Source: Opitutus sp.
GTDB lineage: Bacteria > Verrucomicrobiota > Verrucomicrobiia > Opitutales > Opitutaceae
Assembly: GCA_024998815.1 (NCBI GenBank)
Contig: JACEUQ010000002.1
Location: forward strand, 318,501-382,500
Length of the DNA: 64,000 nt
Direction: 5' to 3'
Shown: positions 10,752-52,000 of the stretch, one piece after another
Layout: every line of letters starts with the position of its first letter
Numbering within the stretch: the first letter of the stretch is position 1
Position numbers and translations under genes: made by a program
Notes under the pieces: generated by a model
Databases searched by the model: none
Seen by the model: only the letters and a program-made list of their open reading frames with translations
What the model was told of the DNA's origin: nothing

Positions 10752-10841
10752 GGAGAGGTGGCAGAGTGGTCGATTGTACCTGACTCGAAATCAGGCGTGC
10801 CCGCAAGGGTACCGGGGGTTCGAATCCCTCCCTCTCCGCCA
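10752..10841 (+). tRNA. tRNA-Ser (CGA anticodon)
   Basis: Ninety nucleotides including encoded CCA. The acceptor stem is GGAGAGG with CCTCTCC plus discriminator G and CCA. The anticodon stem is CCTGA/TCAGG with loop CTCGAAA, giving CGA. A long class II variable arm is followed by the T-arm with GGTTCGAATCC. The 3' part from 10817 on is the left copy of the 37-bp repeat that marks the integrated element. The gene is intact after integration. Confidence 0.96.
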
Positions 10842-10853
10842 GTTATCTCGCTC
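10817..10853. repeat. attL, 37-bp direct repeat in tRNA-Ser
   Basis: Identical over 37 bp to 48898-48934. It covers the T-arm, acceptor 3' strand and CCA of the tRNA and 12 bp beyond. Sequence diverges directly after it, which is what site-specific integration leaves behind. Confidence 0.93.
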
Positions 10854-10911: not shown

Positions 10912-10917
10912 AACATG
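10896..10917 (+). promoter_or_regulatory. TTGACA start-associated motif, integrase
   Basis: TTGACA at 10896-10901 lies 13 nt before the integrase ATG. It is one of several copies with nearly the same spacing in this element. The position is too close to the ATG for an ordinary -35 box. Confidence 0.45.
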
Positions 10918-12129
10918 TCCCCGTCCGCATTCATCGTTTCCCGCTTCGTAAACCGTAACGGCATCACCTCCTGGCGAGTCGATGGCCGACTCCACGGCCT
11001 GCGCATCCGCAAGAACTTCAAAACCCGCGTCGAGGCCGGCGCTGAAAAAGACGCTCTAGATATTAAGGCGGCTCAGTCCGATACCGGCATCCGTGCCACC
11101 TCCACCCGCCTGACCGACGAACAGCTCCACGAAGCCGAGGCCGCGTTCCGTCGTTTGGCCGACGCGCCCAAGTCGCTCGAATTCTACCTCGATTACGCGT
11201 TGGCCAACTACCGCGCCCCCGAGCGCGAAATCACCGTGGATGACGCCGTCGCCGTCTACCTCGACACCAAGAAAAAAGAGCACGCCAACGGCATGCTGTC
11301 CGAGTGCCAGTTGAAGGACATCCGCGTCCGCCTCGAAGTCCTCATAAAGTCGTTCCGTGGCAAATCGCTCGCGGTGCTCTCCCGTGAAACCCTCGCCGCC
11401 CATTGTCAGCGCGGCACCCCCAAGCCCAAGACCTTTAACAACAGGCGCGGCATCCTGTTTACCTTTTTCAAGTTCGCCTTCTGTCAGGACTGGGTCGCCG
11501 CCAACCCGCTGGAAAAGGTGCCCCACCTGCGCATCGCCCATCGTCGCGGTTCGGCCAAGACCCTAAACGCCGAGCAGTCCGTCGCCCTCATGCGCCACGT
11601 CGAGCAGATCGACGGCGGGGCCTTGGTGCCGTTCTTCGCCTTGGCGCTCTTCGCCGGGATTCGTCCCTGCCTGCGCACCGGCGAAATCTTCAAGCTCAAG
11701 CCCGAGCACGTCCGCCTCGATACCGGCGTCATCCTAATCGAACCCGAGGTTTCGAAGGTCCGCATGAAGCGCAACGTAACCATTCCGGCCAATCTCGCCG
11801 CCTGGTTAACCGCGTACCCAATCAGCCGTTTCCCGATCATCCCTAAAAACCTGCAACACCAGCGGGCGCGCATCGCCGAAAAGTTCGGCCTCTCCCACGA
11901 CATCATGCGGCACACGTTTATTTCCATGCACGTGGCCAAATACCGCTCGATGGGTGAAGCGGCGCTCCAAGCGGGTAATTCGGAAAGCATCATCCGCAAG
12001 CACTACCTTGACCTCAAAACGCCCGCCGAGGCCGAGCAGTTCTTCGGTATCCTGCCAACGCCAGTCGTTGCCGTCGCCACGGCCACGGTCACGCCGTTGG
12101 AGGTGCTGCCCCTGGCTATCGCCGCGTAA
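10915..12129 (+). CDS. int: tyrosine-type site-specific integrase
   Basis: Catalyses integration and excision of the element at tRNA-Ser. The 404-residue protein has an N-terminal part with the repeat-like DGRLHGLRIRKNF (an AP2-like or arm-binding region), a SAM-like core-binding domain at about 105-205, and a catalytic domain from about 215. Likely active residues are R250 (FAGIR), K about 284, the H328/R332/H333 cluster in SHDIMRHTF and the nucleophile Y364 in IRKHYLDL. The His usually found near the second Arg is replaced by Asn in AGNSES. It lies 62 bp from attL and reads away from the tRNA. A degraded relative sits beyond attR at 48995. Confidence 0.93.
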   Translation: MSPSAFIVSRFVNRNGITSWRVDGRLHGLRIRKNFKTRVEAGAEKDALDIKAAQSDTGIRATSTRLTDEQLHEAEAAFRRLADAPKSLEFYLDYALANYRAPEREITVDDAVAVYLDTKKKEHANGMLSECQLKDIRVRLEVLIKSFRGKSLAVLSRETLAAHCQRGTPKPKTFNNRRGILFTFFKFAFCQDWVAANPLEKVPHLRIAHRRGSAKTLNAEQSVALMRHVEQIDGGALVPFFALALFAGIRPCLRTGEIFKLKPEHVRLDTGVILIEPEVSKVRMKRNVTIPANLAAWLTAYPISRFPIIPKNLQHQRARIAEKFGLSHDIMRHTFISMHVAKYRSMGEAALQAGNSESIIRKHYLDLKTPAEAEQFFGILPTPVVAVATATVTPLEVLPLAIAA

Positions 12130-12217: not shown

Positions 12218-12241
12218 TTGACACCCCGCCTTGAGCGCATG
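12218..12241 (+). promoter_or_regulatory. TTGACA start-associated motif, HTH gene
   Basis: GTTGACAC with TTGACA at 12218-12223, 15 nt before the ATG at 12239. Confidence 0.45.
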
Positions 12242-12484
12242 AACCCACCCACCGTTTCCGCTCCCTGCATCAGTCCGCAGATCAACTCCCAGCTCACCGA
12301 CATCGTCGGTCTTCGCACCAGTGGTATTTTCCCCGCCGGTCGTGAACCCTCCATCCGCACCCTGCGCGAATGGTCCAAACTTCGCCGCATCCCTCACCAC
12401 CGCGTCGGCCACTTCGTTTATTATGATCCGGCCGAGGTTTCGTTGCACATCCGCACCAAACTAAAAATCCCCGCCCGAGGTTAA
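12239..12484 (+). CDS. small excisionase-like DNA-binding protein
   Basis: An 81-residue protein directly behind the integrase and its terminator. The central part, SIRTLREWSKLRRIPHHRVG followed by HFVYYDPAEVSLHIRTKL, has the pattern of winged-helix/MerR-like excisionases: a recognition helix, a turn with Gly, then a short beta segment ending in a Tyr/Asp pair. A role in excision or in directing the integrase is inferred from size and position. Its last codons (HIRTKLKIPARG) are copied in the degraded element beyond attR, fused there to an integrase start. The start is supported by the preceding TTGACA motif. Confidence 0.7.
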   Translation: MNPPTVSAPCISPQINSQLTDIVGLRTSGIFPAGREPSIRTLREWSKLRRIPHHRVGHFVYYDPAEVSLHIRTKLKIPARG

Positions 12485-48607: not shown

Positions 48608-48759
48608 ATTATTTGTGTATTCGGCCAAGACTTGGAAAACACTTCAGCTCCATGCACTCGGCAAAATAAAGAATCCTATTAGTCACTGGAACGGCTGACA
48701 GGGACGACGGGGCATCCACGGGGGCGGGACGTTACATGGCTACACTCGTCCCCCTATTT

Positions 48760-48781
48760 AGGTTGCCCAAAGGTTGACCAA
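48760..48781. promoter_or_regulatory. two tandem AGGTTGnCCAA sites near right end
   Basis: AGGTTGCCCAA (48760-48770) and AGGTTGACCAA (48771-48781) abut each other; a third copy, AGGTTGTCCAA, is at 10885-10895 near the left end. The arrangement fits arm-type binding sites of the integrase. Confidence 0.5.
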
Positions 48782-48897
48782 ACTCCTGTTTTTGGCTTCC
48801 TTTAGGTGCATTCACCTGCTTCGCTCTTCACGTCATAAATAATTAACCATCAACTAAGTCCGTGCTTTAGAGCACCTTAGTCAGCAAGGAGGGAACT

Positions 48898-48934
48898 GGT
48901 TCGAATCCCTCCCTCTCCGCCAGTTATCTCGCTC
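48898..48934. repeat. attR, 37-bp direct repeat
   Basis: Perfect copy of 10817-10853. Only the tRNA 3' end is present here, without the rest of a tRNA gene. Sequence beyond it resembles a second element's left end. Confidence 0.93.
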
Positions 48935-48994
48935 ATTACGAATGACTTAGTGGAAGCAAGCAGCCTATTTGCCAGTTGACGTGGCAAATCCTAC

Positions 48995-49180
48995 ATGTCC
49001 CAGGCTCCACAGTTCGTCATTTCCGAATTCACGAATCCCTCCGGGGAAATCGTTTTCCGCCTCACCGGCTGGCTCGACGGCAAGCGCATCCGCAAAAACT
49101 TCCCCCTTCCGCGCCGAGGCCGCCCGCCACATCCGCACCAAACTGAAAAACCCCGCCCGCGCCTCATTCGCATTCCGTCG
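48995..49180 (+). pseudogene. remnant of a second integrase fused to the end of an HTH gene
   Basis: Starts with ATG 61 bp behind attR, the same distance as the intact integrase from attL. SQAPQFVISEFTNPSGEIVF and LTGWLDGKRIRKNF resemble the intact integrase start (IVSRFVNRNGITSWRVDGRL and HGLRIRKNF). About 20 bp later the DNA switches to the end of the small HTH gene: bases 49131-49162 match 12451-12482 almost perfectly (HIRTKLK.PAR). A deletion of about 1.4 kb therefore removed the rest of both genes, with GCCGAGG as possible microhomology. Confidence 0.8.
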
Positions 49181-49547
49181 CATCACGTCGACTTCCAGCG
49201 CCGCCCGTTCCGCGACCCAGCCCGCCCTTACCGGTGGGCATTTTTTCATCCATAGTACCCCATTCACCTCGTCCGGCTCACCGGTTGACGACACTTGATG
49301 GGGTTCAGCCTTAAACTCCCCCCACGACCCACTCTGGCACTATTCATAGGCCCGCTGTTTGTTTTGTAGACCCAGCCCAAACCCTCAATTCTCGCCGACT
49401 CGGCAACGGAGTCGGCGAACCTCACTTTTCCGAGGTGGATTCGTAACCGCCAGAAATAGACGATGTTCGCGCCGCCGCTCACAGTAAAAGATCAAAACTC
49501 GGATGAGTCAGCTTATCGAGCATCTGCGTGTGGTTATTAAGCCTTAA

Positions 49548-51538
49548 GTAGAGTAGAGAGAGCCGCGCGTCGGTAACCCGTCAGCGCGACCCTCCCCCTC
49601 GTCAAACCGTGCAAGCGGTTTTCCCGCACACGGCTTACCGAGTCCCCATTCTTTCGGTTTGGTTTCAGCGGAGTTCATTGCTTCCAAGCCGCCGTAAGCG
49701 GCCAGTGCCATAGTTTGTATTGACCATGCAAACGGTCGTCGGTGAAGAACTCGAAGAGTCCGTGGGTGCGGCTATACTTTCGCCACAGCCACCGCCGCAA
49801 CCGGTTGCGCACAAAAGCCTGCTGGTTACTAAACACGTGCGTGCTGTTGCCGTAATGAAACGCCGTCGCCCAACCGCGAGTGATTTGGTTGACCTTGCGG
49901 ACCACCGCCACCGCCGGTTGGTTGCGCGTTCGCACATCTAGCTCCATCCGCACTTTGTCGCGTAACTTGGCCAGACTTTTCGCACTGGGGTCCACGTGCG
50001 GATACCTTCGTTTGCTCTTCATGCCTTGCCGCCATGCGACGGAAAAACCGAGGAACTCAAAGCCTTCCTTTCGTGTATCCACCAGTCGGGTTTTCTCTTC
50101 GTTGAGCTTTAACTTACGTGCCTCCAGCCACCGTTTCAGTCGCGTTTGCAGCCCCGCCCCTTGACCCGGTTTGCACAGGATCAGGAGGTCGTCGGCGTAA
50201 CGCACCATCGTCGGCTTTTGTTCGCACTTCTCATTCACCGCATGATCGAGGTCGTTGAGGTAGAGGTTCGCCAGCAGAGGCGATATAACTCCGCCTTGTG
50301 GCGTGCCACACCGGTTCGCGCTCACCTTGCGGCACCCCGTGTCCCGGTCCTCTTCCACGATGGGTGCGCGCAGCCACGTTTTTATTAAACGCAACACGCT
50401 CCCATCGCTCACCCGTTTGGCCACCAATTGCAGGAGTTCGCGGTGCGGGATCATATCGAAGTAGCTCGATAAATCCGCGTCCACCACCTCCACCTTTCCG
50501 CTCAGCATGGCTTCCTTGACCTTATCCATCGCCTGATGGGTCCGACGTTTCGGCCGGTAGGCGTAGGAATGGTCATGGAAGTCCGCCTCTAGGATTGGCT
50601 GCAACACGATCACCGCCGCGCTTTGCACCACCCGGTCTTTCACCGTAGGGATGCCCAGCGCACGACGTTTGGTCCTGGCCTGATCCTTCCATATATAGAC
50701 GCGCAGGACCGGACTGGGTCGGTAGGTTTTCGTTCGCATTTCCTCCGCCAGCGCAAGCAGCCATGCCGCCCGATAGGCTTCGTTCTTTACGAGCGTTTCC
50801 ACCTCGAACCCGTCCACTCCCGGCACGCCGTCATTGGCGATCACCTGATCGAGCGCATCCGACAGAATGTCCTGCCGATACAGCTCTCCATACAAACTAT
50901 AGAACCGCCAATGCGGCTCCGCTTTTGCTTTCCGATATAGCACACGTTGCAGCTTCCGAACCTTCGGTGACGTTTTTATCCAGAGTTCATCACCCCAGCC
51001 ATCGTCGGGTCCTTTGCCGCTCTGTGATGCGTGGGAACAAGTGCCCTCCCTTCGCTCCCCGGCGGTTTTAATGTCCGCTAGATCATCACTACTATGGAGG
51101 TCTCCGACTCCTGCCACGGCCCGTCCGGCCTTACGAGGTTTTGCCGCGCTTGTGCCGGTGGTTGAGGCATCGCAAGACGCCCCACCGCCGCAGGTCTCAC
51201 CACTTAACCTAACGACCTTTCCCACCCCGCCGCCCCCGCTGACTCCGCCGACGTGTTGATCGGAAATCAACGATTTAGGTCCTACGTCTTTGCGAGACTG
51301 CCTTTTCCGATCCTTGCAGTCTTCACCGTTCAGGTAGCGGCTGGACTCGTCGGTTGTTTCGGTAACGGAGCTCATTGGATGGGGTTCACCTTCGTTGCGG
51401 CTGACTGGTTCGGGCACACGGTCGTGCTTTCCGGCGAGGCCTCGCGGCCTGCATCCGTGACCGGGCCCTTCGACCGCGAATCGTTAAATTCGGCCGAACA
51501 GACTTTCACTGTTATGGTTGTTAGTTTCATGGTCGCAC
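49548..51538 (-). ncRNA. group II intron (ribozyme), approximate ends
   Basis: On the minus strand the intron begins with GTGCGACC at 51538 (a GTGYG-type start; GTGTG at 51540 is an alternative) and ends near CTCTACTCTAC at 49548. Domain V is clear at 49604-49636: AAGCCGTGTGCGGG, a GAAA-like turn, CCGCTTGCACGGTTT, with the catalytic AGC. Domain VI follows with the GGGTCGCG/CGCGCGGCTC pairing. The reverse-transcriptase gene lies in domain IV. About 1.99 kb in total. Exact ends need comparison with an empty site. Confidence 0.85.
49675..51417 (-). CDS. ltrA: group II intron reverse transcriptase/maturase
   Basis: The RT core starts near residue 140 (KVRKLQRVLYRKAKAEPHWR). NDGVPGVDGFEVETL, RALGIPTVKDRVVQ, VVDADLSSYFDMIPH, GTPQGGVISPLLANLYLNDL and the catalytic MVRYADDLLILC follow. 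Maturase domain X is ITRGWATAFHYGNSTHVF, with a C-terminal RRWLWRKYSR. The HNH endonuclease domain is missing. The first about 130 residues are low-complexity and probably overlap structured intron RNA, so the true start may be internal. Intact and likely active or recently active. Confidence 0.93.
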   Translation of the reverse strand: MPEPVSRNEGEPHPMSSVTETTDESSRYLNGEDCKDRKRQSRKDVGPKSLISDQHVGGVSGGGGVGKVVRLSGETCGGGASCDASTTGTSAAKPRKAGRAVAGVGDLHSSDDLADIKTAGERREGTCSHASQSGKGPDDGWGDELWIKTSPKVRKLQRVLYRKAKAEPHWRFYSLYGELYRQDILSDALDQVIANDGVPGVDGFEVETLVKNEAYRAAWLLALAEEMRTKTYRPSPVLRVYIWKDQARTKRRALGIPTVKDRVVQSAAVIVLQPILEADFHDHSYAYRPKRRTHQAMDKVKEAMLSGKVEVVDADLSSYFDMIPHRELLQLVAKRVSDGSVLRLIKTWLRAPIVEEDRDTGCRKVSANRCGTPQGGVISPLLANLYLNDLDHAVNEKCEQKPTMVRYADDLLILCKPGQGAGLQTRLKRWLEARKLKLNEEKTRLVDTRKEGFEFLGFSVAWRQGMKSKRRYPHVDPSAKSLAKLRDKVRMELDVRTRNQPAVAVVRKVNQITRGWATAFHYGNSTHVFSNQQAFVRNRLRRWLWRKYSRTHGLFEFFTDDRLHGQYKLWHWPLTAAWKQ

Positions 51539-51561
51539 ACCTGAATTCCGAAGTTCAAACC

Positions 51562-51695
51562 AACCACAGATTACACAGATTGCACAGATACAATCCCTTA
51601 GGAGGTAAACGGACTCAGCTTGATCCCCTTTTTTCATCCTGTCTTCAAATTCAGTAACATTCTGATATCTGTGCTCATCCGTGAAATCTGTGGTT
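51562..51695. repeat. inverted-repeat element (AACCACAGATT arms)
   Basis: AACCACAGATTACACAGATT (51562-51581) faces AATCTGTGGTT (51685-51695), with CACAGAT/ATCTGTG inner copies at 51583-51589 and 51667-51673. Such 'CCACAGATT-ACACAGATT' elements are widespread in Verrucomicrobia- and Planctomycetes-like genomes as intergenic repeats; this one lies just outside the group II intron. Confidence 0.6.
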
Positions 51696-51733
51696 AAAAC
51701 TTCGGTATTTGGGTTAAATAAACAACTAATTCC

Positions 51734-52000
51734 AAGCGTGTTGCCATCTTCGGAGCCGAGCTTTCGGGGCTGAGCGTCGCGCACGAGTTGGTGCGCCGTG
51801 CATACCGAGTTTAGGTCTACGAATCCGAAGCCCAACCTGGCAGGTTCTTTCACATCGCACGGGAACCGCTGTCGGGTAACCTGCCCGCCTCGGCACTCAG
51901 CCTGCTTAACGAAGATCCGCCCGGCCGTATTTCCACGGCAAAGCGGCGATTTCCATATAGCGGAAACCAAAACCCCAAATCCATGTTTTCCAAAAAGTAA
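51734..52000 (+). pseudogene. FAD/NAD(P)-dependent oxidoreductase fragment
   Basis: KRVAIFGAELSGLSVAHELV has the dinucleotide-binding pattern of amine oxidase/phytoene desaturase-type enzymes (one Gly changed to Glu). RRAYRV is followed by an in-frame TAG at 51812-51814; then VYESEAQPGRFFHIARE continues the same protein. The remainder has degenerated and ends at a stop at 52000. No start codon is present. It is a decayed fragment. Confidence 0.7.

Follow-up and report, generated by a model that had tools for sequence, protein, structure and literature searches.

Why should a few hundred base pairs that look like the beginning of an integrative element lie behind the end of another one? The window analysed here, a 64,000-nt stretch of Opitutus sp. 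DNA, contains a 38-kb element (10.8-48.9 kb) seated at a tRNA-Ser(CGA) gene. The 37-bp core that closes this element (48898-48934), identical to the copy that opens it (10817-10853), is directly followed by what a preliminary description of the sequence took for the scar of a second, sibling element in tandem, an integrase start fused to the end of a small helix-turn-helix (HTH) gene. The core reads GGTTCGAATCCC...CTCGCTC, and its first copy comprises the end of tRNA-Ser(CGA) together with the start of the element. The features of the locus are collected in Table 1.

Table 1. Features of the tRNA-Ser(CGA) locus, in window positions.
Feature	Position	Strand	Evidence or remark
tRNA-Ser(CGA), integration target	10752..10841	+	ARAGORN; Rfam RF00005
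att core copy 1, attL of tRNA-proximal element	10817..10853	+	alignment and pattern searches
full-length tyrosine integrase, subgroup A	10915..12129	+	phrog_1 integrase E 1.8e-18; PF00589 E 0.0024, below Pfam's cutoff
small gene after integrase, 81 aa ("HTH" of the preliminary description)	12239..12484	+	
right end of tRNA-proximal element	48758..48897	+	two direct AGGTTGNCCA repeats 11 bp apart
att core copy 2	48898..48934	+	attR of proximal element and attL of putatively displaced sibling
left-end palindrome of sibling	48967..48989	.	subgroup B arms ATTTGCCA-N7-TGGCAAAT; intact
sibling's integrase, first 36 codons	48995..49102	+	then one inserted base shifts frame
deletion junction	49114..49123	+	microhomology CCGAGG(C/T)CGC; 1.40-1.48 kb missing
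sibling's HTH-like gene end	49124..49166	+	TGA stop reads TCA at 49164-49166
region 3' of sibling's HTH-like gene	49167..49279	+	homologous in siblings up to 49279
truncated end of IS21-type or derived element	49278..49484	-	outer terminus ~49484; relic's second breakpoint
group II intron	49544..51538	-	RT/maturase ORF 49675-51417; neighbour, outside sibling

The tRNA-proximal element

The two cores of the proximal element lie 38.1 kb apart. Its open reading frames include members of the terminase (TerS, TerL), portal, protease, scaffold and major head protein families, it codes for recombination and replication proteins as well, and its cargo is of the defence type, namely a type III restriction-modification system and AbiL-like genes. 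Among the ORFs scanned, which are part of the element's total, there was no tail family and no conjugation family. The small gene behind the integrase had been named for a helix-turn-helix; its end does recur in the stump, but it yields no Pfam or PHROG match, helix-turn-helix families included, and is here called HTH-like.

Composition of the stump

Judged by its sequence, 48898-49279 is a dead stump left by a sibling of the 38-kb element. Behind the core come the left-end palindrome of this sibling, the first 36 codons of its integrase and, across a junction, the end of its HTH-like gene. The palindrome, ATTTGCCA-GTTGACG-TGGCAAAT, is perfect, and it stands ahead of the integrase-like start in the layout around TTGACG that had been pointed out earlier. 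The reading frame itself opens with an ATG at 48995, 60 nt past the core.

Within the window, the stump matches the corresponding end of the proximal element with 76% identity over 131 columns, core included (E 2.9e-14). Far closer matches emerged from the organism's own genome (4.24 Mb on 3 contigs; 40 of 148 candidates were scored), in which 48899-49124 is 87-90% identical to the starts of three other integrases (E 8e-83, 1e-72 and 2e-51, the third spanning 48961-49120 of the stump) and a fourth, truncated integrase start matches over 58 bp. The near identity of the HTH-like gene end amounts to 30 of 32 positions, at 49128-49159 against 12446-12477, which lies 3-5 bp from where it had been placed. 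Among the same 40 of 148 candidates, ~49109-49279 is matched in six sibling loci (73-88%, E 5e-40 to 4e-19), shorter pieces of it recur in two of these six, and no other locus matches, so the match is not a common genomic repeat. In the element loci, moreover, the scar gave 60 matches, and the reversed scar and each of 20 triplet-shuffled scars gave 0; with the homology in the organism's own genome, these controls reject chance or a common repeat as the source of the stump and place the integrase-like start well above random.

The DNA missing from the scar measures 1402 bp against the window's own element, 1478 bp against the sibling at C1:1230 kb and 1433 bp against that at C3:56 kb, in agreement with the roughly 1.4 kb first proposed. 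At the breakpoint both parents, left and right, have CCGAGG(C/T)CGC, a microhomology of ~10 bp that is longer than the GCCGAGG originally suggested. The fusion, for its part, exists as a junction but not as an open gene: one base is inserted just 5' of the junction and the stop codon of the HTH-like gene has changed from TGA to TCA, so neither frame is intact. By this frameshift and lost stop codon the stump is marked as dead. A terminator-like hairpin with a T run was noted by eye at 49220-49249.

The far side of the stump

Beyond 49279 the homology to siblings gives way to other mobile DNA. The stretch 49278-49484, near which old attR debris had been expected (49.3 kb), proved to be a truncated IS21-type end: it is 94% identical to the end of a ~830-bp unit with the same terminal repeats in the relative G007. 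The final 60 bp correspond to the terminus of an IS21-family element of 3.38 kb, which has at least 30 matches in the organism's own genome (40 of 148 candidates scored). The neighbouring group II intron has its 5' end, by reading, at GTGCGAC. Just upstream of the intron lies a ~200-bp repeat bounded by inverted repeats (51539-51740), which has over 30 similar copies in the genome and is inverted relative to the copies at the introns at C1:98 kb and C3:72 kb.

Neither an outer att of the sibling nor a remnant of its right end turned up behind the scar on C2, the contig of the window, whether the search used exact patterns, patterns with mismatches or either of the two right-end types. The anticipated third copy of the 37-bp repeat was likewise absent, both from C2 within 3 mismatches and from C2:300001-440000 within 6.

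The integrase family in the genome

A protein search recovered seven full-length integrases from the genome, and a second search found an HTH-like gene behind each. Six of the seven are at tRNA genes, namely Ser(CGA), Ser(GGA), Ser(GCT), Ser(TGA), Gly(CCC) and Glu(TTC). The seventh, at C1:1230 kb and open over 405 codons, follows immediately on the attR of the Ser(GCT) element; by its layout this is the same tandem arrangement as the scar, undeleted at that end. This second, outer element is not complete either: no outer core of it was found within 6 mismatches in C1:1160001-1280000. A type B right-end remnant cut by a repeated IS-like stretch (C1:1195145-1195239), 35 kb from the outer element, is possibly its lost right end.

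Two other loci, C1:97.8-100.4 kb and C1:1003.7 kb, contain integrase fragments, and a further match (29%) represents a distant relative. The cut-off of the protein search excludes the scar, whose 35 matching codons were seen in a separate comparison. The stub at C1:1003.7 kb was considered as a second case of the same integrase-HTH fusion and rejected, its downstream part having no match to the HTH-like gene end. The fragment at C1:97663-100461 (L067) is a relic behind a right end, with a core that contains a run of 37 C and an integrase interrupted by a group II intron plus the intron's upstream hairpin unit.

Siblings for which both cores were found measure 29-40 kb, with one shrunk to 2.7 kb; the latter, at tRNA-Gly(CCC) (C3:56491-59251), consists of the integrase and the HTH-like gene between two core copies. 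Parts of the backbone DNA of the 38-kb element are shared by the siblings at C1:1511-1551 kb, C1:1270-1230 kb, C1:915-886 kb and C2:1602-1563 kb. Each of the four serine tRNA genes seen in the genome stretches examined (CGA, GGA, GCT and TGA) is occupied; the element at Ser(GGA) is not followed by a relic. The element at tRNA-Ser(TGA) (C1:914.9-885.6 kb) combines a type A left end with a type B right end and is possibly a chimera from recombination within an old tandem.

Throughout the family, the integrase start is preceded, at a distance of a few bases, by a palindrome. Across 46 left ends it has two main arm types, AGGTTG...CAACCT and GATTTG...CAAATC, in which the changes match on both arms. 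At right ends (e.g. 48758-48800) its half-sites reappear as direct repeats with an 11-bp spacing, and for this reason they may be integrase arm sites.

Relatives and the probable order of insertion

The first 225 bp of the scar are 95% identical to the start of an element in G012, a member of the same genus, 90% identical to the sibling at C1:1230 kb and 76% identical to the neighbouring 38-kb element. In G012 this scar-like element starts directly at the orthologous tRNA-Ser(CGA), upstream of which lie the same two genes as in the window (96% and 90% amino acid identity). The contig of G012 ends inside the integrase, so the comparison is made without the HTH-like gene end; both G012 and G007 are fragmented assemblies, of about 320 and 310 contigs respectively. 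A tree of the 46 left ends groups the scar with G012 (ultrafast bootstrap 99, SH-aLRT 61, the latter weak); two contigs apparently enter it twice, since L086 and L157, and likewise L102 and L144, agree in length and sequence and appear to be single contigs present in two collections. The stump is thus a related element, as had been proposed, but belongs to a lineage separate from that of its neighbour: its integrase is of subgroup B, and its closest relative is the congener's resident at the same tRNA gene. The core at 48898-48934 stands between two element types, as attR of the 38-kb element and attL of its decayed tandem relative, just as first described.

A second locus retains a marker of the order of events. 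The Ser(GCT) loci of the Opitutus genome and of G007 are orthologous (88% over 4.2 kb upstream). In G007, the integrase type that is the outer one in the Opitutus tandem (96% amino acid identity) sits directly at tRNA-Ser(GCT), whose acceptor end is CCCTCTCC; in the Opitutus genome, this CCCTCTCC end lies 40 kb outward, at the tandem junction. The tRNA-Ser(GCT) there (C1:1270440-1270531, L057) ends instead in CCCCTCC, as Ser(GGA) does, with one mismatch (A-C) to the tRNA's own 5' strand, and this acceptor end was apparently acquired via integration of an element from tRNA-Ser(GGA). The simplest reading is that a newcomer entered at the tRNA gene, bringing a foreign tRNA end with it and forcing the resident outward. 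At Ser(CGA), the scar is consistent with this scheme of displacement. Together, the closeness of the scar to the G012 resident and the tRNA-end marker at Ser(GCT) suggest that newcomers insert on the tRNA-proximal side and that residents move outward.

No empty site was read in relatives at 19 loci in other genomes around the gene upstream of tRNA-Ser(CGA); only the G012 locus among these has the tRNA gene, which leaves no empty site to be read. From the far side, the GHMP-kinase gene in five relatives has no serine tRNA within the 7-17 kb examined on the side that, in the window, faces the tRNA.

A probable history of the locus

We conclude that the stump is very probably what remains of an older family member that formerly adjoined tRNA-Ser(CGA), was displaced by the 38-kb newcomer and, at some point before or after, suffered its deletion. 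The old resident was probably at this tRNA gene and was pushed outward by the newcomer. The second family member (10.8-48.9 kb) would have entered later, at the tRNA-proximal att core, by site-specific recombination; insertion at that core would carry the old resident ~38 kb outward and join its left end to the newcomer's right end. Before or after this displacement, the resident would have lost its middle, from integrase to HTH-like gene, by a microhomology deletion, and it would also have lost everything further out, the IS21-type end and the group II intron now bounding its far side. That an integrase made the insertion, how the deletion arose, to which the microhomology is our guide, and when it fell relative to the displacement are matters that we infer from the present arrangement.

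Does decay usually come first? To place the scar among similar junctions we assembled 65 stretches that span two types of right end; a right end is present in 64 of them and is followed by at least 260 nt in 59. They were picked by similarity to two right ends, not at random, and 7 of the 59 come from the Opitutus genome. Rows that matched a tRNA end alone were dropped, as were G127:C121 (contig edge), G083:C15, G014:C26 and C1:1195145 (cut by an IS). An integrase start follows within 400 nt of the right end in 11 of 59 stretches. The other 48 have no match to the two query integrases, with which an unrelated integrase would be missed. Seven of the 11 are broken (the scar, C1:97.7 kb of the same genome, G007:C2, G160, G101, G065 and G009), three are open from ATG over 398-418 codons (C1:1230 kb, G007:C113 and G035), and in G118:C7 (L235) the second-in-line integrase is open over 400 codons with AGG in place of ATG, which reflects either incipient decay or an error in sequencing. 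In one further case, G016, only a decayed palindrome was discerned by eye. The arm types differ (A-B or B-A) at 7 of 11 typed junctions and agree at 4, these 11 comprising 10 of the 11 integrase-bearing junctions (L255 is untyped) and G016b, typed by eye; a restriction of tandems to partners of unlike arm type is therefore unsupported.

As a variant of the tandem reading, the resident may already have been a CIME-like remnant before the newcomer arrived. According to PMC5704250, most such tandems that include decayed elements arose by integration, followed first by decay and afterwards by accretion, and the seven broken integrases of the survey point the same way. On the other hand, the three open integrases, one of them in the same genome, and the fourth with its changed start codon indicate that newcomers also accrete onto residents whose integrase is undeleted. 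We regard decay before displacement as quite plausible, leaning slightly against it. A CIME, as defined in PMC5704250, has lost its integration and transfer genes and kept both attL and attR. The stump agrees with the first part, its integrase being cut after 36 codons and thrown out of frame; with no outer core within 6 mismatches in C2:300001-440000, it is not a CIME by that definition.

It is very unlikely that both elements came together as one pre-formed tandem composite. The right end, core and integrase start form one contiguous stretch that shares 89.7% identity, across 368 columns, with the junction of the Ser(GCT) tandem, and the transfer of composites is reported in PMC5704250; however, an element of the scar's type starts directly at the orthologous tRNA gene of G012, and the Ser(GCT) tandem bears the tRNA-end marker of a separate insertion. 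More improbable still is a functional stump, be it a small gene for an arm-binding-domain peptide or a trans-mobilisable mini-element. The 86-codon frame from the integrase ATG, the intact palindrome and the relic behind a right end in G160, likewise cut near codon 32, would suit such a role, but the frame is out of register after codon 36, the HTH-like gene has lost its stop, other relics break elsewhere (codons 38 to 197, 64, 92, or at stop codons) and the outer att was not found. Finally, the same layout and shared core might suggest a fragment duplicated or converted from the neighbouring 38-kb element, a prospect that is negligible and, as an internal duplication, rejected by subgroup and identity: the stump is 76% identical to its neighbour, whereas its identity reaches 95% with the G012 resident and 90% with a further sibling in the same genome, and it differs from the neighbour in arm type.

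Relation to known systems

Accretion and decay have already been described, and the process is ordinary. Pavlovic et al. (2004) reportedly dealt with tandem accretion of ICEs and IMEs with decayed elements. In such tandems, as treated in PMC5704250, two elements share an att, as at 48898-48934. Unlike them, the element beside the stump carries phage head and packaging genes and has no conjugation family in the scanned ORFs, and the outer att of the stump was not found.

The head and packaging genes recall another class. Capsid-forming PICIs (cf-PICIs) are not known to have tail genes. They have capsid and packaging genes of their own, as the 38-kb element does, but average 14 kb against 38 kb here, and the host list in the available part of PMC10803314 is without Opitutaceae. 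They also depend on a temperate helper phage, whereas no helper is known for the 38-kb element, and membership is not claimed. Nor is it claimed for the Tycheposons, which PMC10872708 describes as tRNA-seated, with a tyrosine recombinase and variable cargo, as are the elements treated here; the comparison covers the tRNA border and the tyrosine recombinase. Among the open-licence papers listed, no title or abstract opening concerns such elements in Opitutaceae.

Implications

What is unusual about the displaced resident of tRNA-Ser(CGA) is how fully its history reads from its relatives. One wider scheme that we consider unlikely is that the family builds ordered arrays at serine tRNA genes, the newest element at the tRNA and the oldest outward and decaying, in which hybrid junctions keep the dead element's presumed arm palindrome as a working part of the newcomer's attR; if so, the relic would help to fix the newcomer in the genome by changing or blocking its excision. 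More directly, the locus clearly records, in nature, how islands stack up at a tRNA gene, and it explains how tRNA islands grow outward and leave behind remnants of integrases that could be annotated as genes. The findings also indicate a family of such elements in Opitutaceae; one member codes for capsid and packaging proteins, and the family occupies the four serine tRNA genes seen in the examined stretches of one genome.
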